Below the pieces are notes generated by a model that ran no database searches, was not told the DNA's origin, and saw nothing but the letters and a program-made list of their open reading frames with translations. Made by a program: the position numbers and the translations under genes. A stretch of DNA of 64,000 nt from Paenibacillus peoriae (GTDB lineage Bacteria > Bacillota > Bacilli > Paenibacillales > Paenibacillaceae): assembly GCF_022531965.1 (NCBI RefSeq), contig NZ_CP092831.1, positions 3,109,001 to 3,173,000 of the forward strand, in the 5' to 3' direction. This document shows positions 35,352 through 46,059 of this stretch, piece by piece. Every line of letters begins with the position of its first letter. The first letter of the stretch is position 1.

Positions 35352-35380
35352 AAAAAAAGAAAAACCACCCATGAGGGTGA
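35352..35380 (-). terminator. Terminator of the Tad-like operon
   Basis: TCACCC and GGGTGG pair over a TCAT loop and are followed by TTTTTCTTTTTTT on the minus strand, directly after the last gene's stop. Confidence 0.8.
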
Positions 35381-36370
35381 TTATTTTAAGCCATTATAAC
35401 ATTTGTACTCAAAGTAACCCGCAGCTGCTGCAGATTTTTCATCCGTGAAACGTTCACTCGCTTTAAAGGGAGCTGGACATGAATCTCTATAAAAATACTT
35501 TATTCCAGTATCTGGTTCTATGCCACCGATAATGTCTTGCTTTCTAACGACTCTCCCACCACCAAATCCATAGTTATTGTAATACCTGTCTCCGACCGGA
35601 ATGCCTTGGATAAACGCGATCAGCCCCACATCATCTACCGTGTTGTACCACTCCTCTTGCGGAATGATCGGTAGCGTGAACGAATAAGTTATGCCGTTAC
35701 GCGCTGCTTTTTCGTTATGGACATTAATAATTCGCGCCAAGTCCTCTTGAACGCTGCGAACAATGGTGGAACGACGTATTTGCTCAAAAGTTTCTGAATT
35801 TTTCAGCAAAGATATAGCGGTCTGATCCTGAAGTTCCTTTTGAAAGCCCTCTACCCACCTGTGATTTCGAGCATCGTATGCGTGCACATAATTATCCAAG
35901 GTGAACCCCACACTGTTGCCTACTGAATCAACATAGGCATATGGCTTTTTTTCGCTCCATTTGTGGCCAATAGCAGCTTGTCCATGCTCGTCTGTATAGG
36001 CTTCTGAGGTGAACGCATAATAACCGTCATAATCCAGAATTACAATAGCCGGTATGTAATCCAATAATGCACGTTGTGCTACTATATCCCCATCAATGCC
36101 TACATTAAGAAAAAGGGTGTGCAGGAACGTGTTCAGCGCTGCTTCTTTATCTACCCGAAAAAACTTATCCGATCCGTATCCGGCCTCGCGTTCCTGACGT
36201 TCATTCTGTGAGAGCACAACCCCTGCATCCTGAACTGCGGTACGGAGAGCCGACGTATATTTCATTTCTAGCTGCTGCACTTCACGCTGATTCTGCACCC
36301 GTAAGTCACTAACTACACCAAAGGGCAAAAACAAAAGTATAAATATGACCGCAAAATCAGTAATCCTCAT
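35381..36370 (-). CDS. Single-pass envelope protein of the Tad-like operon
   Basis: 329 residues. One N-terminal hydrophobic segment (residues about 4-21) is followed by a long soluble part, probably outside the cell. No known domain was recognised. It contains DYIPAIVILDYDGYYAF, an aromatic-rich stretch, and two Cys near the end (DSCPAPF and YKCYNGLK) that could pair. It overlaps the preceding gene by 14 bases, so it belongs to the operon. The N-terminal pattern, short tail then a single TM helix and a helical stalk (about residues 30-60), fits a TadE/TadF-like minor pilin or pseudopilin, which is inference. Confidence 0.65.
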   Translation of the reverse strand: MRITDFAVIFILLFLPFGVVSDLRVQNQREVQQLEMKYTSALRTAVQDAGVVLSQNERQEREAGYGSDKFFRVDKEAALNTFLHTLFLNVGIDGDIVAQRALLDYIPAIVILDYDGYYAFTSEAYTDEHGQAAIGHKWSEKKPYAYVDSVGNSVGFTLDNYVHAYDARNHRWVEGFQKELQDQTAISLLKNSETFEQIRRSTIVRSVQEDLARIINVHNEKAARNGITYSFTLPIIPQEEWYNTVDDVGLIAFIQGIPVGDRYYNNYGFGGGRVVRKQDIIGGIEPDTGIKYFYRDSCPAPFKASERFTDEKSAAAAGYFEYKCYNGLK

Positions 36371-36737
36371 TCAGAATCATGCCCCCGTAAGAAGCTGTAA
36401 CTGCTGGCTTGCCGCTATCTGCCCCACCAAGAAGCCATGATTTGTACAAGTCCGCAGGAGTCCGATTCGTATTATGTACCCGGACCGTAAAATAATCCCC
36501 GGCCATCAAGGTATATCGACGCGTCTGATCTGATTTTGGCTGCTGATTGTCAGGAAACAGTACAGGAAAAATTTGCGAATTATAGTACCCATCATATACA
36601 GCTTCATAATTGCCCAGAAAACTGTCTGGCTTCGCGGCATCTGCATAGTCCGGTACATACTTTTTGTGCATATGTTCCAAGTCAACTTCGTACGTATTGC
36701 CTGTCAATTCCAGATCACGCATAAAATCGTTATACAT
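36357..36737 (-). pseudogene. C-terminal part of a frameshifted envelope protein in the Tad-like operon
   Basis: From ATG 36737 this gives 126 residues (MYNDFMRDLELTGNTYEV...). In the same frame the codons just before the ATG read WITPTMYNDF, which makes a natural continuation of the upstream piece if the single A at about 36753 is skipped: FVD then WITPTMYNDF. ITPxxYxxF...L-x-x-T-G-N-x-Y is a recurring segment in Tad-cluster secreted proteins as I remember them. It could instead be translated separately: the ATG overlaps the upstream stop as ATGTATAA. It overlaps the next gene by 14 bases. Confidence 0.55.
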
Positions 36738-36894
36738 CGTCGGTGTAATCCATATCAACAAAACGTACAGTTGAATGATATGTATTTAACCCGGATATAT
36801 CATCCTGCTGTTCAGCAGCTTGAGCTGCGGGTACGATGTACAAAAGCAATACAGCGAGCAGCGCCCCCAACAGCTTCGATATTGTTTGAACCAC
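36730..36894 (-). pseudogene. N-terminal part (signal peptide) of the same frameshifted protein
   Basis: 54 residues from GTG 36894, which directly follows the previous gene's TGA and has GGGGGAAG upstream. It consists of a signal peptide (core LLGALLAVLLLYIVPA, likely cleavage after AQAA) and 20 or so mature residues before a stop in frame at 36730-36732. Too short to function alone; with a one-base shift it continues into the entry above to make a secreted protein of about 179 residues. Confidence 0.55.
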
Positions 36895-36895
36895 T

Positions 36896-37291
36896 TCAGT
36901 CTTCCCCCAATTTCTCAAAACGTACAGATGTTATGTCCCCATTCCCATTACGCTGGGGGTACATGGAATATAATGAGGAAGCATCCAGGGTCGATACATC
37001 AGGCTCAAACGGTTCAGAAAATACATCATACTCTGTCCCGTCGACTTGAATCGAAATCCCCTCCTGTAAGTTCATGCGAATTGCCTGTATGACCTGAGTT
37101 CCTTTAATCCGCTCCGGCAACCCCACCCCAGCAGTACGGGCTATTCGCCCTTCAGAATGCTCCTCTTGCTGTGATCTTAATTCCAGTGCACCATCCAGCT
37201 GGCTGGACAAGTCTGCTGCCGTTACACATGCGGTTATGAACAGAATAACTGACACACCAAGCCGCAGCATGCTTGAAGCGTGATCAGACAT
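36896..37291 (-). CDS. Small single-pass protein of the Tad-like operon (pilin-like)
   Basis: 131 residues from ATG 37291 (GGGGGATGAG upstream). Residues about 8-27 form one hydrophobic helix (MLRLGVSVILFITACVTAAD), followed by a soluble, acidic extracytoplasmic domain. The layout of a short N terminus, one helix and a small C domain is that of minor pilins/TadE-like proteins. No conserved family was recognised. It lies between the probable major pilin-like gene and the frameshifted gene. Confidence 0.6.
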   Translation of the reverse strand: MSDHASSMLRLGVSVILFITACVTAADLSSQLDGALELRSQQEEHSEGRIARTAGVGLPERIKGTQVIQAIRMNLQEGISIQVDGTEYDVFSEPFEPDVSTLDASSLYSMYPQRNGNGDITSVRFEKLGED

Positions 37292-37331
37292 ACTCTCATC
37301 CCCCTTTTGATTATTATCTTTGCTGTAGTGC

Positions 37332-37811
37332 TTAGGACTGGATAAACAACAACCCACGGACAACGTTCGATTTGTCCTTGACGATTTCAGCTTTAAATTT
37401 ACCACTCGGATTTACGTATTCATTCTCTTTCTCATTAAGTGTATTCGTGATTTTACCTGTCTTATCACTGCCACCATTCACGGCGCCATACTGTTCACTG
37501 TCTGGGCTAATGTTCAGAGCATTACCGTACCACTGGCCTGCCATATTTTTGCCGGTTTTAATCTGAATGCCGAATTGGTCCTTCCCCTGAAACTTCCGCA
37601 GCGCATTGGTCACCTGGGAACCGCTAATCGTTGTGCCGTCATATACCGTAAAAGAGGCTTGAGACAATTCGGTCTGAATATCAGCAAAATTGTTTTGTGC
37701 CGTTTTAGTCGCCTCCTGGGCTGAAATAAATAGTATAACTACAATCGTAATTAGAGCGATGGTCAAAAATATCCCAGCGGCTACCTTTAAAGCTGTCGAT
37801 GCGTTATTCAT
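37332..37811 (-). CDS. Pilin-like single-pass protein
   Basis: 159 residues. A short N terminus (MNNASTALKVA) precedes a hydrophobic helix (GIFLTIALITIVVILFI) and a helical stalk (QEATKTAQNNFADIQTEL), then a beta-rich domain. This is the pattern of type IV-type pseudopilins, though no prepilin-peptidase site of the classical G-F-x4-E form is present. A TVYDGTTISGSQVTNAL segment follows. It is the first small gene after the membrane platform gene and could be the major surface subunit. Confidence 0.6.
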   Translation of the reverse strand: MNNASTALKVAAGIFLTIALITIVVILFISAQEATKTAQNNFADIQTELSQASFTVYDGTTISGSQVTNALRKFQGKDQFGIQIKTGKNMAGQWYGNALNISPDSEQYGAVNGGSDKTGKITNTLNEKENEYVNPSGKFKAEIVKDKSNVVRGLLFIQS

Positions 37812-37862
37812 TTATTTTTCTCTCCTAGCTTGTTATTTTGTATTAGTCATAGGTTAACTTTC

Positions 37863-39947
37863 TTACTGATTTTTTTGTATTTGTTCATAATAGTTATCCA
37901 TTTGAACAAAGCTCATACCGATCAACGGAATCACCAAATATAAAAAGATAAGACCATACATCGGGGCAAAACCAATCATCCTTCCCCAGATAGCCTTACT
38001 GTCTATTATTTTTTCATACTCCTGTTTTCTTTGTTCGAAATAGTAGGACATATGGGATTCCAAATCATCAAAGGCCTCTCGAATCGTAATTTTACCTAAA
38101 GACAAATGAAGCTTATCCACGAGACGTTGAAATTCCGGCAAAGGCGCTTCTTCTTTTAGCAAGTCGAGAGCTGCCTCTGGCCCATGTTCATAATGAAGCA
38201 AACATTTTTGCAGAGGTCTTTTGAATATAACTGAAAATCTGTTCAGCCACTCCAATATTTCCTCGACAGACATTCGTTCCATAACCCGTAAAATGGAAAT
38301 AACTGTTTGAAATTGATACACCTCATGCCTCATATCCAACCGACGCATTTTTCGTTGCAAATATAATAAAAGCATAGGCATTTGATAGGCTGCGTACCCA
38401 ACAATCAAACTAATCAGCACTTCCCACCACTTGATGTATTCATCATTCCAATCTTTTAGCTTTTGGAGGATACGCCAAGTATTTGTGGATAACTGTTCAG
38501 GAGTAGCAGTTCCATTAGCATTATGCTCTAAAACAGCGTACGTCTGTTCGTATGTGCTGTTCGACCTCATGTTCAGCGAATGCATGATTTTGCGATCAAT
38601 CTCACTCTGCTTCAAAGCTTCTTTTTGCTCCACCGGACTTAAACGTCCAAACATTTGACCCGATTGCACTGGTGCGTGAAGGATATGCGTTCTCTCAGCT
38701 TCATGTAAAAAAAATATCGTACTGATACTGAGCACCAATCCTATAATACAAAGAGCCATTCTGCGTATGTAGAGCCACTCCAGCCTAATCTCCGCACCAC
38801 TTTCCTTTAATAGGCGGATTATTTGAAAATAAGAAGACATATGCTGACGTGGAATTAAAGAATCCACCACATTACGAATGATAGGAAAACGGTATAGCTT
38901 CTGCTCCCAAACCCTCCGTCCTCTACCCGCACGATATCCTGTCTCGTCGGTCTGTTGTAGCTTCTGTAACAGGAAATAAGATACAATTATCACAATATAA
39001 ACGGATAATTTTGTGATATAACCCAATTTTCCCTGATAAAACTCATCCATGGAGGGAAAGCTGGATCTCGCCCATGTCTCGATTGGGATGGTAAAGAAAA
39101 CAGGTGCTAGTGCGATCACGTTTAGACTTTTTAACAGATAGTCCAGTTTATTTCTTCGCAGCAACTCCAACTGGATTTCGCGTGCGAGACTGCCGAGCCC
39201 CTTCAAATAAATGGAGCCACCCTCCTCAACCCGATCACCAAACTCCATTACCATATACGAGATACCGGCAAAAGCTTTTAAAAATCGATTAGGAGCCGAT
39301 TCATAGTATCTTTCCAATGCTTCGTGCGGATCAACATCTGTTAGCGCCTCATGGATGAGTCGTGCGTGTCTCCCGGCCTCTGCCTCCGCCAAATCGGCCG
39401 CTTCGGATATAGCTTCCTCCACCATACCGTGCTGATGGTAATAGTGACGCACATTGGCGAATAATTCGATCATCTGTGCAAGTAGCCTTTTTTCCATCCG
39501 GCTAATGGCCATATCCAAAATAAGACTGTTGATTACCACTCCGCATAAAACGGCTAATATAGCAAACTCTATTCCTGGCTTCATCATGACCAGCACAACA
39601 CCACTGCAAGCAAAAGCTCCCCAGATGAACAGTGTCATCTTCATCGTCTGTAGGCGAAGCTTGTACTCATCGTAGGCATGCTGACCAGCTAGTCGCTTAC
39701 GTATACTCGTGATGTATCCGGATAAGAAAGGGACCTTCATACACAGCGTGTACAACTTATGCAGTAAGGCTTGCAGCTCACGTTGCAGTACCGCTTTTCC
39801 CTTGCGCCCTTCCTTCACAGAATAAATTCGTCCTCTGCGAACTGCATGACTACTGCGCTTACGCAACCCCCATAAAGCTATATATAGAAGCGTAAAGCCC
39901 CCACCTGATATAAGTAAAATCCATAATAAAATTTCTTTAAGACTCAT
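37863..39947 (-). CDS. Fused TadB/TadC-like membrane platform protein
   Basis: 694 residues with hydrophobic segments near residues 6-27, 108-145, 280-300, 318-335, 400-420, 520-545 and 660-680. Two soluble helical blocks between them resemble T2SF/TadB-TadC domains: MIELFANVRHYYHQHGMVEEAISEA with DVDPHEALERYYES in the first half, and VYQFQTVISILRVMERMSVEEIL ... ITIREAFDDL in the second. In ordinary Tad systems TadB and TadC are two proteins; here one long chain holds both. It overlaps the ATPase gene by 11 bases and would form the inner-membrane assembly platform. Confidence 0.75.
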   Translation of the reverse strand: MSLKEILLWILLISGGGFTLLYIALWGLRKRSSHAVRRGRIYSVKEGRKGKAVLQRELQALLHKLYTLCMKVPFLSGYITSIRKRLAGQHAYDEYKLRLQTMKMTLFIWGAFACSGVVLVMMKPGIEFAILAVLCGVVINSLILDMAISRMEKRLLAQMIELFANVRHYYHQHGMVEEAISEAADLAEAEAGRHARLIHEALTDVDPHEALERYYESAPNRFLKAFAGISYMVMEFGDRVEEGGSIYLKGLGSLAREIQLELLRRNKLDYLLKSLNVIALAPVFFTIPIETWARSSFPSMDEFYQGKLGYITKLSVYIVIIVSYFLLQKLQQTDETGYRAGRGRRVWEQKLYRFPIIRNVVDSLIPRQHMSSYFQIIRLLKESGAEIRLEWLYIRRMALCIIGLVLSISTIFFLHEAERTHILHAPVQSGQMFGRLSPVEQKEALKQSEIDRKIMHSLNMRSNSTYEQTYAVLEHNANGTATPEQLSTNTWRILQKLKDWNDEYIKWWEVLISLIVGYAAYQMPMLLLYLQRKMRRLDMRHEVYQFQTVISILRVMERMSVEEILEWLNRFSVIFKRPLQKCLLHYEHGPEAALDLLKEEAPLPEFQRLVDKLHLSLGKITIREAFDDLESHMSYYFEQRKQEYEKIIDSKAIWGRMIGFAPMYGLIFLYLVIPLIGMSFVQMDNYYEQIQKNQ

Positions 39948-41772
39948 AGTCTTCCTCCCAATAGCGGGTCAAAAAACTGCGGAAATCTCTGGCATCATTT
40001 ACATTCATCTGCTCATACATTTCTTGTACACTTTTGGCTGTTAAGGACTCCATCGGTATATAGCTTCCGTTCCGATATTCCATAACGTGGCGATAACTGT
40101 AGCTCGTTGAAGCATTGGAGCCTGCATCCGTATGATCCGGGTCACGCGGCACACATTCTGTGATCCGTTCGATGTAGCGTCGCCCTTCCGCATCACGTTT
40201 GAGATGCACATCAAAGTTAATGACATGAACTACCTGTTCCTCAGCAATGCCTTCATGCTGAAATACTCCTGTTTTGAGCAATGAATTACGAAGTGAAAAC
40301 ACGAGATCACGAAATGTTTTGGCATGATGAGTAAAAATGGTGAACAGACTGGCAACCTGCGACATTTGAATCATCCAAGCAGCTACTTCATCACTTGCTA
40401 CTTCGCCTAGAATATTGACGGTTCCATCTGTTTTTTTCTGTAAGTCAAGCCCTTGTTGTCCTGAAATATGATCCGTTTCTCGAAAGCTAAGAATGTTACG
40501 GCGACTGTAGATGCTGCGTAGATGCAGTTCAAAAGCCATTTCCTGAACGCGAAGCGTATACGAAGCATAAATGTGCTTGACCATCGCCATTAACAACGTC
40601 GTCTTACCTGAGCCCTGCGCGCCTGTGATAGCAGTAATCCGGCTGCCTTTCATTAAATAAGAAAGTAGCTGGATTGGAAAATCAGCATTTTGTCCCTTAA
40701 TTAACTGTTCCAGCGATGCGCTTTGAATATCAAATTTACGGACAAAGAAAGCCCACGATTCTGAGAAAGGAGGTCGCACCACCACTACCCGTGACCCATC
40801 CTTCATTTCATTGACCTTATAACCATTCGCTTCGGAAAGCTGTCCCGGGTAATTGTATTTGTAAATATTTTGGCACACCCTTTTAAGTTCACGCTCAGAT
40901 CCGAAGGAAAGGAACGAAAGATGGATCGTTTTACCTTTATAAAAAATCCATACGCTCTCATAACTATTGGCAGTAGGCATAGTTGTTTGTTCAAATACAT
41001 ACCCATCGGAAGGCCAGTCTGATGATGCAGGAATCCCACCTTCCGGCATACCACTGACGCCCCCACTTACACCGTCGATCCGCTGGTCACGAATATCATC
41101 AATGACGGAAAAGCCTTTATAATGCTGATAAATCCGCTGGACAATAATATCCACCTTCTCCAAAAAGGAAAGGGGCCGGTACTCACAATCATAGATATAA
41201 CGAATGTCCTCTGCGGTAACGAGATAACTTCCATCTTCTTCACCTTGCTGTGAATATCTCATTTCGGCCAAGTCATAAGTATCCAGTAAACGTGATAGTG
41301 CATCAGCGCCAAACTTCTGCTGGTATTGGTAAAATATAATTTCGAATTGATCCTGTATGCTAAACAACTCAGGTCTGGAGAATGGCATAACAGTATCGAC
41401 GATTTTCTCGTTCAAGCCGTAACCGTGAATCAGAAGCTCAGCCATCAGATTTTTAACAAAACGTTTATCTCCACTGCTACCATTGGCACAGTCCTTTAAT
41501 GCCCTGCGTAGTTCCGCCCTTTGATGGATACGCCGTCTATATTCCTCTTCATGCAATCCGGCATCCGCCATCTGGCTATGACTTAGTTCATGAAGTGCAT
41601 TTTTGATATACTCTATTAATGTTTCGAATGTGGCATCTTCATTCTTTTTTTCTACTCGAAGGGTTGAATGTCGCGAGTGAAAATCCCCTCGATATTTAAC
41701 AAGAATCAGTACGATGCACATCAATACTATACAGGTAAGAATCAATCCGTTGATCATTTGAGCGGACAGCAT
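39937..41772 (-). CDS. CpaF/TadA-like secretion ATPase with an N-terminal membrane helix
   Basis: 611 residues. The C-terminal half is a VirB11/CpaF-type ATPase: Walker A GAQGSGKTT, Asp-box-like region, ILGEVASDEVAAWMIQMSQ in place of the usual GEVRxxE, and FTIFTHHAKTFRD in place of the STxHAN motif. The N-terminal extension of about 200 residues begins with a transmembrane helix (MINGLILTCIVLMCIVLILV), which canonical TadA proteins lack. It should energise assembly or secretion through the platform protein it overlaps. Directly follows the MinD-like gene with no gap. Confidence 0.8.
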   Translation of the reverse strand: MLSAQMINGLILTCIVLMCIVLILVKYRGDFHSRHSTLRVEKKNEDATFETLIEYIKNALHELSHSQMADAGLHEEEYRRRIHQRAELRRALKDCANGSSGDKRFVKNLMAELLIHGYGLNEKIVDTVMPFSRPELFSIQDQFEIIFYQYQQKFGADALSRLLDTYDLAEMRYSQQGEEDGSYLVTAEDIRYIYDCEYRPLSFLEKVDIIVQRIYQHYKGFSVIDDIRDQRIDGVSGGVSGMPEGGIPASSDWPSDGYVFEQTTMPTANSYESVWIFYKGKTIHLSFLSFGSERELKRVCQNIYKYNYPGQLSEANGYKVNEMKDGSRVVVVRPPFSESWAFFVRKFDIQSASLEQLIKGQNADFPIQLLSYLMKGSRITAITGAQGSGKTTLLMAMVKHIYASYTLRVQEMAFELHLRSIYSRRNILSFRETDHISGQQGLDLQKKTDGTVNILGEVASDEVAAWMIQMSQVASLFTIFTHHAKTFRDLVFSLRNSLLKTGVFQHEGIAEEQVVHVINFDVHLKRDAEGRRYIERITECVPRDPDHTDAGSNASTSYSYRHVMEYRNGSYIPMESLTAKSVQEMYEQMNVNDARDFRSFLTRYWEEDYES

Positions 41773-42630
41773 TTAAGCGCCCCTCTCCAAAGCCTTGAGC
41801 CGAAGATCGGACTCTGCCGCCTCCAGAATAGCTTTGCTGATATGACGTATACTCTGCGCCCATCCTACAGTCATAAAAAGCTTGCGAGGCTGCCCTTTTC
41901 CACTTCGTACCTCACGCTGCACATGGCCGATCACATCCCTGCGGTTCCATGCGTCCATAAATCCGGTGTTATAAGGGACTGTATACAGAGCACCTTTGTA
42001 GCCATATCTCCTGCGAATATTCGCTTCATTCACTTGAGAATGCACATCATATTTTCCAAGTACTATTAATAAGGGTAACGATGAGTAGGTAGATAACGGA
42101 GACACGGATTCAAAATAAGCGTCTAACTCTCGCATATTCTGAGTGAGTGAAAGAACAGCCAGTTTGGCTCGTGCACATGCTTCATGCTGTACAGCCCCCC
42201 ATCCTGCTCCACTTCCTGCATCAATTAGCGTTAAATCATAATATTGGTTCGCTGTATCTAGTACTGCCCGTACAAGCCCTGGAGACAGTAACGGCGGTGC
42301 AGCTCCAAAGCTGGAGGTTCCCTCAAGTACATCCAAAGTATGTTCGAGTACAGGTGTCGTATAATTACGAATATTTTCTTTAGACAGTGTCCCTCGCAGA
42401 ACTAAACGTGCGGCAGCATCCCAGCCCCCTTCCTGAAGCTGTAGGGTTGGATCATCCATACCATACTCTTGTATAGGTAATCCTGATTCAATACCGGTAT
42501 GTCTACGACCCAAATGAGTCAATAATAGTCTTCCTCTATATAGATTGCCTATGGTAATTGCTATTGCTGCCGCCAAAGAGCTACTTCCACTAGCCCCCTT
42601 AATGGGGCTCCAAAACAAAATGGTACTCAT
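41773..42630 (-). CDS. Degenerate MinD/CpaE-like protein 1
   Basis: 285 residues. The N terminus WSPIKGASGSSSLAAAIAI aligns with the deviant Walker A of MinD/ParA (KGGxGKTT): the signature Lys is kept, the P-loop Lys is Ser. Later DLTLIDAGSGAGW matches the MinD DxxIIDxxxG switch region, and a positionally normal LAVLSLTQNMREL follows. In Tad systems this place is taken by CpaE/TadZ, which positions the machine. Loss of the P-loop Lys suggests ATP binding without hydrolysis, or none. Overlaps the next MinD-like gene by four bases. Confidence 0.7.
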   Translation of the reverse strand: MSTILFWSPIKGASGSSSLAAAIAITIGNLYRGRLLLTHLGRRHTGIESGLPIQEYGMDDPTLQLQEGGWDAAARLVLRGTLSKENIRNYTTPVLEHTLDVLEGTSSFGAAPPLLSPGLVRAVLDTANQYYDLTLIDAGSGAGWGAVQHEACARAKLAVLSLTQNMRELDAYFESVSPLSTYSSLPLLIVLGKYDVHSQVNEANIRRRYGYKGALYTVPYNTGFMDAWNRRDVIGHVQREVRSGKGQPRKLFMTVGWAQSIRHISKAILEAAESDLRLKALERGA

Positions 42631-43340
42631 GCTCTACTCCTTTCCGCACGCTTTAGCGCACGACGAATCACCTTTAATTCCCAACTCATCCATTCCCCAA
42701 TACAACGGCATAGTTCTTTCTTATACATTCTGGATAGCGGTTTTAGTATTAGCTGTTTTTTATGCTCATTTTCCAGTTTCAGAGCAAGCAACCCCTCATC
42801 CCATGGCAGTATATATGGCTCTTGCTGCCAAGATGCCGGGAAATGGTTCATGTATTCCCACAGATACGGCTCCTCCAGACCACAATCCACGGCCTGTAAA
42901 AATAGCTTGTGAAATACAAGATCTTTGGGAAATTCAGATTGACTGAATAAATGCTGAAGCCAATTCTGTCCGTTATGCATTAGCATGCGGCTATAATCAC
43001 TGACCCAAACTCGCAGTTCTGCCCTTTTCCAAACAGAAATTGGACAAAAATCAAGTAACTCTACATCTAAAATAACAATGTCATAAACCTGCTCTGCCTT
43101 CTGATCAGCCGTCATACCTATATGCAGGTCTTCCCATGCTGTAAATCCAATTGCTACATCAAAACCACTAAACTGCGTAATGGGAAGTGGTTTGTCAAGC
43201 ATCCCTATGCTATACCGATACCGTCCCCGCAGCGTAGCATCTACAAGCAGTACCCGTTGGCCGGAAGCTGCTAATATGCTGCTGATGTATAACAAGGTAT
43301 CGCTTTTGTCACAAAGCCCGGCAAATATCCATGTTTTCAT
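42627..43340 (-). CDS. Degenerate MinD-like protein 2
   Basis: 237 residues. It opens AGLCDKSDTLLYISSILAA and continues GQRVLLVDATLRG, the MinD/ParA strand-helix-strand layout, with a P-loop that has lost the GxGKT core. YDIVILDVELLDF corresponds to the switch strand. No other domain was recognised. It lies between the SAF-domain gene and MinD-like protein 1, overlapping the latter, so a heteromeric TadZ-like complex is plausible. The identification is from fold pattern, not from strong motifs. Confidence 0.6.
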   Translation of the reverse strand: MKTWIFAGLCDKSDTLLYISSILAASGQRVLLVDATLRGRYRYSIGMLDKPLPITQFSGFDVAIGFTAWEDLHIGMTADQKAEQVYDIVILDVELLDFCPISVWKRAELRVWVSDYSRMLMHNGQNWLQHLFSQSEFPKDLVFHKLFLQAVDCGLEEPYLWEYMNHFPASWQQEPYILPWDEGLLALKLENEHKKQLILKPLSRMYKKELCRCIGEWMSWELKVIRRALKRAERSRA

Positions 43341-43362
43341 ACTTCCGTTCCTTTTCTCTCAT

Positions 43363-44349
43363 TTATTTGGCATACGGGTCAGAGCTTCCACCCTGCGTCA
43401 GAATCTTTGTTTGTTCTTGATGATCCTGCTCATTCTCATATTCATTTCTTGTAACATCAATCCCGCTTGTTGGGTTTTCTATAGTAGCACCCGCATGTTG
43501 AGCTGCAATTTCCTCACTCAGACTTCTTTCCACGGGTGTTGAAATTACACTGTTTGATGAACTAATTGCATTTTCAAGGGAATCCCGCAGCTGCTTAGAC
43601 AGCTTTTGTTCAGCAATGTGTATCAAATTCGGATCACTATTCATTAACGCTAACACCTGCGCGTTAGGTGGATAGGTCGGGATTGCCTTAGGCTGAAATT
43701 GGGGATCGACATACGTCAGAGCATAAATGGATGCTTTATGCAGATAGGCATCAACAATCGCGCTCGAAAGCGATAATATTTCCTGCTCATTCAAAGTGAC
43801 CCAGACAATTGGACCTTCCAGTCGGGAAATCTTCTTTTTGGATAATAGAATGTAATCCTGACCTGTTGGAAATTGTATGCGGATATCTACTTCGTCCCCC
43901 GACTTTAGACTGTTGGGTAGTACCACCACCTTTAGCTCACGGTTGCGTAAATCTTTAGGTGTGGGTTCATCAGCAGTAATCATAGACGATGTAAGCACAG
44001 ATCCTTTTTTAAGCTCAATCTTGGCTGTGGTTCCGGAAACTTCACTTTTATTTGCCAGCAAATTTGATGGAGCCTGAGAACCGGGAACTTTAATTCCCTT
44101 CAAATCATTAGATGCAATCTGTTCACCTGGAGAAATATCACGGACAACCGCCCAGCCTTTTTTCGCGGTTCGTTGCTCTTGTTCATACACTTTCCATTTC
44201 AGTTCTGCCTCTACCTCAGCCTGTTTCCTAACCTCATTCATTTGATGGATATTAACCATAAGGTAGCCGGCAAAGATAATGCCAACAATCCCAGCGCCAA
44301 TGCAACCGGCATACAGTTTTTGTTTACTGCTTTTTCTTAGCTTGGACAC
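43363..44349 (-). CDS. SAF-domain (CpaB/RcpC-like) envelope protein
   Basis: 328 residues. One N-terminal transmembrane helix (YAGCIGAGIVGIIFAGYLMV) is followed by a coiled segment and a SAF domain: AVVRDISPGEQIASNDLKGIKVPG, KIELKKGSVLTSSMI, and then LKVVVLPNSLKSGDEVDIRIQFP, the CpaB pattern. About 110 polar residues follow at the C terminus without recognisable structure. CpaB proteins in Tad systems guide the pilus through the envelope; in a Gram-positive cell it would sit on the outer face of the membrane. Confidence 0.78.
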   Translation of the reverse strand: MSKLRKSSKQKLYAGCIGAGIVGIIFAGYLMVNIHQMNEVRKQAEVEAELKWKVYEQEQRTAKKGWAVVRDISPGEQIASNDLKGIKVPGSQAPSNLLANKSEVSGTTAKIELKKGSVLTSSMITADEPTPKDLRNRELKVVVLPNSLKSGDEVDIRIQFPTGQDYILLSKKKISRLEGPIVWVTLNEQEILSLSSAIVDAYLHKASIYALTYVDPQFQPKAIPTYPPNAQVLALMNSDPNLIHIAEQKLSKQLRDSLENAISSSNSVISTPVERSLSEEIAAQHAGATIENPTSGIDVTRNEYENEQDHQEQTKILTQGGSSDPYAK

Positions 44350-44389
44350 ACAACTTCTCCCCTGCCTCTTTTTGATATATACTTTCTAT

Positions 44390-45880
44390 TTAGCGCCGTC
44401 GCTTAAGGGATGCGAAGCGTCTTCTCCGGGTGTCTGGAATAACTCCGCGAAACAGCTCGTCCAGCACCTGATCCATCTCATCATCCCGTTCGAAGGGGTC
44501 TGAGTGGAACGGTAGAGCAAATACTTTATCGTGATCCAGCTCCTTACGAAGCCTGCGAACCGCCTCCGAAGTTGCCAATGGCAAGCAGTAATTCCATTTG
44601 TGCTGTGGGTGGCGCTGAAGAGATCGGGTTAGCCCTGCTATATCCTGAACCCTCCATTCGGCCCCTGAGCCAACGACGAGCGGATAATCGGCTCTCAAGA
44701 ATTCTTCCAGACGTTCATTATCCTGCCCACTCCCCAGGTCCAGTACGATAAATCTGTAAGAACCACCCAACAAAGAAATGACATCCGCACGCGATGTTTG
44801 TCGCCAGTAATGTACTCCATCGACTTCAAAACGCCGACTTGAACTCATTTGTCCAACGGATGTGCCTTCTACGACTTCTTGAAGTCGGGCAAATGCTTTG
44901 GCTGTGCTGTGCAGCTCAACCAAAGCTACGGAGCGGGATCTTCGAGCCAGATAGTGGCTCACCATAATTGCTGTATGCGTAGCACCGGAGCCGGCAGAGA
45001 CACCCAGTACAGCCACTACCCTTGTACCTGCATAATCCATTGAGGCATCATTAACGGATATTCCTTGTTGAGCAGGTTGAAAATCAGCACTGCGACGCAG
45101 TTCTCCAATGACCTCCCCGGCGGATTGAAATCGTTCCTTAGGATTCTCACGCAGCAGTTTTCGAATTACTGGAATCAAATGACGAGACAATTCCCCGCGT
45201 ATATATCCTTCTACTCCCGCAGTCCACTCGCTATATTTGCCTCCTGTACAGAGATACAATAGCAGCGCTCCCAAACTGTATAAGTCTGAACGAGCATCCG
45301 TCTGACCTGCTCCATATTGCTCCGGGGCAGCGAAGCCCACTGTGCCCAGCTTTACCGTATCTTGATCCAGCTCAGCCTTGTAGCTCCTCGCTATTCCAAA
45401 ATCAATCAGTATAAATTCCATTTCCGGTGTCAGCATAATATTCGTTGGTTTCAGATCCCGGTAAATGACTGGTGGTTGACGGGTATGCAAATAATCCAAC
45501 ACATCCAGTACCTGCAAAGCGAATGGGACGATTTGCTCCTGTGGAATATAGCCTTGGTAACCCTTCATATATGCTTCCAGCGTAATTCCTTCGATGTAAT
45601 CCATAACCAGGTATACCGCACCAGATGGGGGATGCTCAAAAAAATCAACAATTCTTGGTAAACGTGGATGGCTTAGTGAAATCAGCATCTCTGCCTCCGT
45701 GCGTACAAGCTTCATCACTTGTGGCTCGGCAACCGACTCCTTCACTGCCCATTGCTTGCCTGGCAGTTTTAAATCCTCTGCCATGAACACGCGGCTCATT
45801 CCTCCCGAACCCAATGTGCGCACAATACGGTAACGCTCACCAACAATTGATCCGAATTCCAACTGTGATGGTTGCTTCAT
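44390..45880 (-). CDS. Ser/Thr protein kinase fused to a degenerate MinD-like domain
   Basis: 496 residues from ATG 45880, preceded by GGAGGTAGGAG. Kinase domain about 15-275: Gly-loop LGSGGMSRVF, Lys in WAVKES, catalytic YRDLKPTNIML, metal-binding IDFGIAR, and APE (AAPEQYG). After a linker, residues about 305-470 read VAVLGVSAGSGATHTAIMV, SVALVELH, YRFIVLDLGSG, the MinD/ParA layout with Ala in place of the P-loop Lys. No transmembrane helix or PASTA repeats, so it is cytoplasmic. As the first gene of the operon it may control assembly by phosphorylating other parts; the fusion itself is unusual. Confidence 0.82.
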   Translation of the reverse strand: MKQPSQLEFGSIVGERYRIVRTLGSGGMSRVFMAEDLKLPGKQWAVKESVAEPQVMKLVRTEAEMLISLSHPRLPRIVDFFEHPPSGAVYLVMDYIEGITLEAYMKGYQGYIPQEQIVPFALQVLDVLDYLHTRQPPVIYRDLKPTNIMLTPEMEFILIDFGIARSYKAELDQDTVKLGTVGFAAPEQYGAGQTDARSDLYSLGALLLYLCTGGKYSEWTAGVEGYIRGELSRHLIPVIRKLLRENPKERFQSAGEVIGELRRSADFQPAQQGISVNDASMDYAGTRVVAVLGVSAGSGATHTAIMVSHYLARRSRSVALVELHSTAKAFARLQEVVEGTSVGQMSSSRRFEVDGVHYWRQTSRADVISLLGGSYRFIVLDLGSGQDNERLEEFLRADYPLVVGSGAEWRVQDIAGLTRSLQRHPQHKWNYCLPLATSEAVRRLRKELDHDKVFALPFHSDPFERDDEMDQVLDELFRGVIPDTRRRRFASLKRRR

Positions 45881-46029: not shown

Positions 46030-46059
46030 ATTATATAGCACACCTGTATCTATTGTAAA
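46030..46059 (-). promoter_or_regulatory. Sigma-A promoter of the Tad-like operon
   Basis: TTTACA (46054-46059) and TATAAT (46030-46035) on the minus strand, 18 bases apart, immediately after the methyltransferase stop codon and reading into the kinase gene. Confidence 0.65.

Follow-up and report, generated by a model that had tools for sequence, protein, structure and literature searches.

A ten-gene operon on the minus strand (35381-45880) of a 64,000-nucleotide stretch of the Paenibacillus peoriae chromosome (NZ_CP092831.1, positions 3,109,001 to 3,173,000; the whole stretch is called the window below) specifies, as judged from its ATPase, its TadZ-like proteins and its platform, a machine of the tight adherence (Tad) class that is clearly distinct from a canonical Tad pilus. 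We favour, at a probability of about 0.6, the interpretation that it is a divergent machine of this class which makes a filament or a pseudopilus and has DUF5704 as its surface module. This is supported by profile matches (of the ATPase to CpaF, of three proteins or protein parts to TadZ, of the N-terminal half of the platform to TadB, and of two single-pass proteins to each other), by the kept gene order, by the layout and constraint of the candidate subunit, and by the pairing with DUF5704.

The genes, numbered g1 to g10 from the upstream end, encode a kinase-MinD fusion, a SAF/CpaB-like protein, two MinD/TadZ-like proteins, a CpaF-like ATPase, a membrane platform and four single-pass proteins; they overlap or are separated by short gaps. 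An earlier note, made from the letters of the window, had placed here a divergent Tad-like operon of ten or eleven co-directional, overlapping genes. Calling of open reading frames (ORFs), profile searches and recurrence in relatives confirm the operon, its location and its common direction, while the count is ten rather than eleven and the ninth gene is broken in this strain. The arrangement is not attributed to chance because its order recurs in relatives, with few exceptions, and because comparison with three relatives shows purifying selection on all nine intact genes (dN/dS about 0.06-0.22, and 0.006-0.010 for g7, the strongest constraint in the operon). The dN/dS run excluded g9, and its ABC-F control in locus L045 (24% identity) was disregarded as a locus-end artefact.

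Relatives were collected in several surveys, described below. What we call the named loci are the best 80, ranked by likeness to the distant member L038, of at least 569 matching stretches in named genomes (two search patterns were used, so that one locus may count twice); 64 of the 80 have full flanks of at least 21 kb.

Motor, platform and TadZ-like proteins

The ATPase g5 (39937..41772) is related to canonical CpaF (hhalign probability 99, E 1.6e-18) and to the solved CpaF in the PDB (E 1.7e-8), its match to the TadA model being weak (41.5 bits, cut-off 373.15). It carries its own N-terminal membrane helix. Across 19 aligned ATPases of the family, the glycines and lysine of Walker A, the GE pair and the HH pair are invariant; the usual GEVR motif is replaced by GEVA in 15 and by GEAA or GEAS in the remaining four, and the GHAN region reads HHAK in 14. 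The usual motifs are intact in the canonical CpaF of the same genome. A CpaF-like ATPase with its own membrane helix and altered GEVR and HAN motifs, as the earlier note had it, is thus borne out. In a tree of 50 ATPases, with TrbB/VirB11 proteins as outgroup and a set that did not include archaeal ATPases, the family is monophyletic (bootstrap 90) on a long stem within the Tad group, and its placement among the CpaF proteins has a support of just 36.

In one relative (G014; L172 and L173, C1:3091000-3146500) some 54 kb of inserted DNA split the ATPase gene. The two ends of the insert that were read contain ORFs resembling phage-tail, endolysin and integrase genes (by eye), and a prophage seems to have entered g5.

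The platform g6 (37863..39947) is a single chain of 694 aa, where a Tad pilus has two platform proteins, TadB and TadC. Its N-terminal half aligns with TadB over nearly the whole length (E 8.9e-6 local, 3.1e-7 global), and the predicted structure (pLDDT 84.2) consists of a long helix, short helices and a long helix, a pattern that is then repeated to give two similar blocks. No Pfam or NCBIfam model matches g6 above cut-off; the top VIA rows are SpoIIIAB and a chain of a type IVa pilus machine, with middling Z. The expected fusion of TadB-like and TadC-like halves therefore stands for the first half by profile, and for the second by layout. An extension ATPase and a GspF-type platform, the pair that marks the type IV filament superfamily, are both found here, the platform by profile in its N-half and, in its C-half, just by the layout of the model and the middling VIA Z.

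The TadZ/CpaE component of a Tad pilus is encountered three times, each time with probability 97 against canonical TadZ: in the C-terminal part of g1 (E 1.9e-10), in g3 (42627..43340; E 2.5e-10) and in g4 (41773..42630; E 1.5e-10). Neither g3 nor g4 has a Pfam match, and their kinship to TadZ/CpaE comes from the profile comparison. The P-loop looks degenerate in g1 and in g4, where lysine is not among the five commonest residues at the lysine position of the GKT/S motif, which together account for 105 of 117 sequences; in g3 it was not recognisable by eye in the motif columns of 111 sequences.

The first gene, g1 (44390..45880), combines this MinD/TadZ-like domain with a Ser/Thr protein kinase (Pkinase, 125.6 bits) in which the catalytic K, RD and DFG motifs are all present. 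Its ORF can be extended to 45958, and the start at 45880 gives 496 aa; from the leftmost start, g1 has 497-501 aa in 10 of the 19 loci compared within the genus (L041-L060, L057 excepted). By these lengths the start is probably 45880 and not 45958.

The second gene, g2 (43363..44349), encodes a single-pass, CpaB/RcpC-like protein whose SAF domain exceeds the Pfam cut-off (29.6 bits, cut-off 21). Of the description "CpaB-like SAF protein" the SAF part is thereby secured, the match to the CpaB model TIGR03177 (36.2 bits) lying under the cut-off of 71. A sequence search of the PDB gave nothing useful for g2 (best E 0.2).

Single-pass proteins and the canonical Tad locus

Four single-pass proteins close the operon. 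The candidate filament subunit is the pilin-like g7 (37332..37811), proposed as such from its model, its dN/dS and its copy number. The model (pLDDT 81.5) shows a 54-residue helix (residues 2-55) followed by a small beta domain; relatives have 1-5 copies per locus, with more than one in nine of the 80 named loci. A PDB sequence search with g7 gave nothing useful (best E 0.025). A candidate minor subunit is g8 (36896..37291), a distant paralogue of g7 by profile comparison (probability 96, E 5.9e-9). The last gene, g10 (35381..36370), encodes a single-pass protein of 329 aa by alignment; it is found in all 64 full-flank loci, and a profile search of the PDB returned no relative (best E 0.16). 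Neither g10 nor g9, of which the 3' piece was scanned, has a Pfam or NCBIfam match over cut-off. Of the "several single-pass pilin-like proteins" that had been predicted, the single-pass character holds for four, and a pilin layout is given by the model for g7, without a match to a solved pilin.

The ninth gene, g9 (36357..36918), is frame-broken in the window. It consists of two ORFs (36918-36730 and 36735-36357), corresponding to one ORF in relatives, for example in the intact P. polymyxa homologue P0121. The loss of 17 alignment columns that are seen in three relatives shifts the frame and splits the gene. A sequencing error is one possible origin of this break. Two metagenome variants of g9 (P0202 and P0210, 134 aa) also change frame near the middle, at a site that differs from the break in the window, and g9 may be a gene that is repeatedly broken or prone to sequencing error.

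A complete canonical Tad locus (L023) lies elsewhere in the same genome, at C1:1.537-1.546 Mb and 1.6 Mb from the window operon, which is therefore a second, separate machine. Its genes, named by eye, are CpaE, CpaF, TadB, TadC, a 63-aa Flp, two for TadE with one for a TadG-like protein between them, and TadV. Of 17 loci examined, 16 have these nine families, none being listed for L076. In the window operon, no Flp profile match was obtained by hhalign for any of the proteins, and g7-g10 gave no hhalign match above probability 15 to the canonical TadE and TadG sets and no Pfam match over cut-off. TadV was found in one of the 64 full-flank loci (L095), which has a canonical Tad locus alongside. 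That neither a Flp-type pilin with a G-F site nor a TadV peptidase is seen in the window locus, as noted earlier, is thus upheld. Profile searches against the Tad families gave Tad-related matches, and neither a placement in unrelated families nor the canonical set in canonical order. As several defining Tad features are missing, we do not file the operon as a Tad pilus.

The cleavage motif of class III pilins (G, then E at +5) was present in 27 of 33 controls (14 of the 17 Flp and 13 of the 16 TadE sequences), as against 0/135 homologues of g7, 1/96 of g8, 0/113 of g9 and 0/109 of g10. These counts bear on the possibility that the operon encodes an ordinary, fast-evolving Tad pilus that borrows the TadV of the canonical locus and whose cleavage site is masked by divergence. 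Such borrowing would fit the finding that the genome has exactly one Peptidase_A24 match, the TadV of the canonical locus, and that each of the 79 family genomes positive for the platform has at least one; the ATPase family also joins inside the Tad group, at the support of 36 given above. However, the peptidase is also present in 67 of 69 platform-negative genomes, so that this co-occurrence is uninformative, and masking by divergence would have to account both for a motif retained in most controls and missing from nearly all homologues of g7-g10, and for the lack of any profile relationship to Flp, TadE or TadG. We consider such an ordinary Tad pilus unlikely, though TadV may still act in trans.

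Distribution, neighbours and the DUF5704 partner

With the ATPase as query, a divergent-type copy (E < 1e-100) was found in 45 of 59 genomes, namely the window genome, all 35 same-genus genomes and nine of 23 others of the order; two of the same-genus genomes, G017 and G019, have just a copy with 47-49% identity. The platform profile was positive in 79 of 148 family genomes, representing 15 of 19 genera. As the two surveys share nine genomes, 115 of 198 related genomes carry a divergent copy. Across the phylum the platform profile found seven of 398 genomes, two of them weakly (E 2.9e-5 and 6.9e-4), a count that may be too low as few candidates per genome passed the first screen (two among the matches listed). 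The named loci come from Paenibacillus, Cohnella, Tumebacillus, Thermoclostridium caenicola and metagenome-assembled genomes (MAGs) of Clostridia, among others. Plasmid copies with 40-57% identity occur in P. polymyxa M1, Thermobacillus, Cohnella, Alkalihalophilus pseudofirmus, Sporosarcina, Cytobacillus and Lysinibacillus, and a copy with 89% identity is on a plasmid of Paenibacillus sp. IHB B 3084.

The gene set is strongly conserved. In the 64 full-flank loci, g2, g4, g5, g6, g7, g9 and g10 are present in all, g3 in 62 and g8 in 60. Exceptions by single-sequence searches are L032 (without g2, g3 and g8), L033 and L037 (without g3 and g8) and L038 (without g3, g4, g8 and g9, of which a profile search of the same stretch, L086, recovers g4 and g9). 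Additions are a second g7-type gene after g9 in L091 and extra g3/g4-type genes before g2 in L088 and L090. L026 is truncated by the end of its contig, and L027 (in G046), with the platform in two ORFs and no g8-g10, looks decayed. The neighbourhood survey proposed in the earlier note thus found the order conserved with few exceptions, and a reach that exceeds the kin of Paenibacillus, extending to Clostridia MAGs and Bacillaceae plasmids.

Paenibacillus and its kin are soil bacteria; the genome analysed here is a single contig of 5.84 Mb, and its g5 ATPase is 97-99% identical to named proteins from Paenibacillus sp., followed by about 89-91% for P. terrae, P. kribbensis and P. peoriae, which suggests a place in the P. 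polymyxa group. The operon is flanked downstream by an ABC-F ATPase gene and upstream by a methyltransferase-like gene (both identified by eye). Among the 80 named loci the former is retained at this position in 23 and the latter in 24, and we therefore regard the window copy as a settled chromosomal locus. A promoter-like site in the gap before the first gene (46030..46059, minus strand; TTTACA, 18 nt, TATAAT, 11 of 12 matches) is the best of 13 in the region, shuffled sequences giving more (mean 23.7). A terminator-like hairpin with a T-run marks the operon end directly after g10 (35363..35382, minus strand; consensus search), 12 such sites being observed in the region and 8.4 expected. Consensus matches of both kinds are weak evidence.

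The plasmid copies, together with weak matches to VirB11/TrbB models, might suggest a DNA-transfer or competence apparatus akin to VirB11/TrbB machines that is spread by plasmids. We consider this very improbable: a divergent-type copy is in all 35 same-genus relatives searched, the chromosomal neighbours are kept in 23-24 of 80 loci, the ATPase tree separates the family from the TrbB/VirB11 outgroup, and the conserved gene set has neither a recognisable relaxase nor a recognisable coupling protein.

The front of the operon is more variable. A Ser/Thr kinase-MinD fusion does come first in the window, as had been noted, but it is not a defining part, being present in 41 of the 64 full-flank loci as a swappable module. 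The catalytic lysine is retained in 39 of 48 kinase-like sequences, and eight or nine appear degenerate. In eight loci (L103, L115, L116, L135, L138, L139, L145 and L148) the first gene, which is kinase-like, is immediately preceded by a gene for a membrane protein, and these membrane proteins form a single sequence cluster; the sole member that was scanned, in L148, has a GGDEF domain. Judged by lengths, the GGDEF-linked loci appear to be those with degenerate kinases. Still other loci open with another protein of the MinD/ParA type, whose P-loop is intact. As a kinase, a kinase-like gene with a GGDEF protein, or a ParA/MinD protein is swapped at this place among loci, control would be exchangeable, and the core is not.

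A candidate partner is encoded at the other end. In many loci g10 is followed by a protein with an SLH or a copper-amine-oxidase-N (stalk) domain, and then by a large secreted protein, which has roughly 1,100 residues (range about 1,000-1,280 aa). A single cluster of the large protein spans 27 of the 80 named loci, starting 1.1-4.7 kb past the last assigned gene in 24 and, by this measure, elsewhere in three (L110, L142 and L148); one scanned member, in L125, contains a DUF5704 domain. On four plasmids the annotation places a gene for an S-layer (or stalk) protein and one for DUF5704 after g10, directly in two and one gene later in the other two. In G030 the pair is found where g10 would otherwise adjoin the ABC-F gene, and the coordinates in G009 point likewise.

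The co-occurrence of DUF5704 with the divergent machine is a new finding. In the first set of 59 genomes, DUF5704 is present in 43 of 45 machine-positive and one of 14 negative genomes; the exceptions are the negative genome G039, whose DUF5704 match is a fragment of 44 positions, and two positive genomes in which it is missing, G038 and the decayed G046. In the 148 family genomes, it accompanies 75 of 79 platform-positive and none of 69 platform-negative genomes, and in the seven genera with both positive and negative members the ratio is 11/15 versus 0/58 (Fisher 3.8e-10). It was found in none of 14 control genomes. Given the pattern within genera, we argue that the linkage is real. A PDB sequence search with DUF5704 gave no match, and in the literature searched we found no publication under this name and none linking it to such a machine. 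The pairing offers a function hypothesis for an uncharacterised family and a first clue as to how such a machine meets the thick Gram-positive wall.

Several further observations concern this partner. Complete-looking operons with an SLH/stalk and a DUF5704 gene, annotated mostly as hypothetical, lie on large Bacillota plasmids (L200-L203), followed in L200 and L201 by a GGDEF or diguanylate cyclase gene. The pair of the window genome (L188:5793-17066, G000:C1) is upstream of apparent nitrogen-fixation genes (nifB/nifH-like, by eye). In G037 (L194:107-8913, C13) a stalk-like gene (310 aa, by eye) and a DUF5704 gene (894 aa) close a canonical Tad locus, which again ties DUF5704 to Tad-type machines.

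Another association is with the type VII secretion system (T7SS). Eight of the 59 genomes have, at a distance of up to about 9 kb from the divergent ATPase gene, an EssC gene that scores over the family cut-off (G002, G022, G023, G024, G027, G029, G038 and G053); the first six look like one lineage, and G053 and G038 belong to other families. In G053 a WXG100-like gene (24.9 bits, cut-off 27.3) sits between the first gene and g2. In L165 (698-13960) the Tad-like operon is followed directly by EssC and then by WXG100-like, vWA-like, YukD-like (by eye) and kinase-like genes and the gene for an RHS protein of 1615 aa that includes a pre-toxin domain. The portion of Garrett et al. 2024 (PMC11217815) that deals with the T7SSg and T7SSh clusters describes them as always adjoining Tad pilus genes and leaves the link open. 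Those clusters resemble the loci seen here in that an EssC-type ATPase, WXG100 and a ubiquitin-like protein stand beside Tad-type genes in Acetivibrio and Paenibacillus; they differ in that the paper regards the neighbouring genes as a full Tad set, whereas here a divergent family has EssC beside it in eight of 59. As far as that account goes, the comparison suggests that the Tad genes beside T7SSg/T7SSh may be this divergent family, which would make it a candidate answer to the question of why they adjoin.

These associations would be expected if the machine were primarily a secretion device, a pseudopilus piston for surface or T7-type proteins and not a pilus. We regard this as unlikely, since most loci, the window among them, have no EssC-like neighbour (seven of the 80 named loci have one inside the examined flanks). 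The window operon contains neither EssC nor WXG100 and thus is not a T7SS locus, the EssC of its own genome being located at C1:2276051. Also, the DUF5704, SLH and stalk proteins have Sec-like N-termini (by eye), so that no extra exporter is needed for them to cross the membrane. The earlier note had considered a surface-appendage or secretion machine likely, and possibly a distinct Gram-positive secretion system; a Tad-related machine that is distinct from canonical Tad has been recovered, a secretion role is not established, and a filament or pseudopilus fits as well as secretion.

Proposed machine and known systems

In the divergent filament or pseudopilus machine that we favour, the CpaF-like ATPase, tethered to the membrane by its own helix, would power the single-chain platform, which in turn would raise g7 subunits from the membrane into a filament or a short pseudopilus. 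The proteins g8-g10 may be minor, initiating or tip proteins, and the SAF protein g2 could form a collar on the outer face, like RcpC, which is described as forming a collar in the relevant part of PMC12307814. The three MinD/TadZ-like proteins, degenerate in the window, may position or gate the motor, and the swappable front (an active kinase, a GGDEF protein together with a kinase-like gene, or a further protein of the ParA/MinD type) would signal when to assemble. The secreted DUF5704 protein and its SLH/stalk partner would then serve as a wall-anchored exit or adhesin module. The homology of the ATPase, of the three TadZ-like proteins and of the N-terminal half of the platform, the gene order, the purifying selection and the DUF5704 co-occurrence are computed results; filament formation by g7, the g2 collar, regulation by the front module and the role of DUF5704 are what we infer from them.

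Several results weigh against this interpretation. The match of the g6 N-terminal half to TadB reaches a probability of 83-88 at most, its C-terminal half matches neither TadB nor TadC in profile comparison, and Foldseek gave no significant match for the g6 model and no significant solved pilin for the g7 model. To these are added the sub-threshold CpaB score of g2 and the near absence of the class III motif from g7-g10. With g9 broken, the machine may or may not work in this strain. The DUF5704 pair of the window genome is unlinked to the operon (C1:1.2018-1.2060 Mb, about 1.9 Mb away), DUF5704 is missing from four of the 79 platform-positive family genomes, and the genomes compared are related, so that the p-values overstate their independence.

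A defining trait of type IV filaments is that their pilins are processed by a peptidase. The family described here keeps the motor and the platform without the pilin signal, and makes this rule directly testable. Tentatively, we suggest as a somewhat doubtful extension that it may represent a further style of bacterial type IV filament, with a single-chain Tad-class motor, pilins that have no class III leader and hence need no peptidase, an SLH/stalk and DUF5704 wall module, exchangeable control by kinase, cyclic di-GMP or ParA, and a junction with T7SS in several lineages. If the latter were true, filament and toxin export would act together. By the minimal list in the Pelicic review (PMC6916266), as given in its section on these parts, a prepilin peptidase is counted among the components of type IV filament machines, so that the absent signal is the peculiarity of this family that lends itself best to a test.

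In the literature searched, we found no publication that describes this divergent family as such. A related description is that of Gram-positive Tad-like loci without a prepilin-like protein, with tadA-, tadC-, tadZ- and rcpC-like genes distant from other tad genes (Imam et al. 2011, PMC3244431, main text). Compared by description, the published loci differ in that they reportedly include tadV and come from Desulfitobacterium and clostridial species, and in the main text of that paper kinase, CpaB and Paenibacillus do not occur.

A single platform with two blocks, as in g6, is also found in archaeal type IV pili. The part of Denise et al. 2019 (PMC6668835) that treats the platforms derives TadB and TadC from the archaeal two-domain protein, TadC from its N-half and TadB from its C-half. 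An archaeal-type fused platform is not favoured for g6, as the order of its halves is opposite. The TadB-like half comes first, and we therefore favour a later, separate fusion in the order tadB-tadC, in which the C-half is assigned by layout.

The canonical Tad locus of the same genome (L023) offers another close comparison. Both have a CpaF-type ATPase, a TadZ-type MinD protein and a TadB-type platform domain, and in both the order is TadZ, ATPase, platform and single-pass proteins. They differ in that L023 has TadB plus TadC where the divergent operon has one platform chain; the latter has three TadZ-like proteins, a SAF protein (none in L023 by eye), a kinase front and a DUF5704 partner, and is without Flp, TadE, TadG, TadV and the class III motif.

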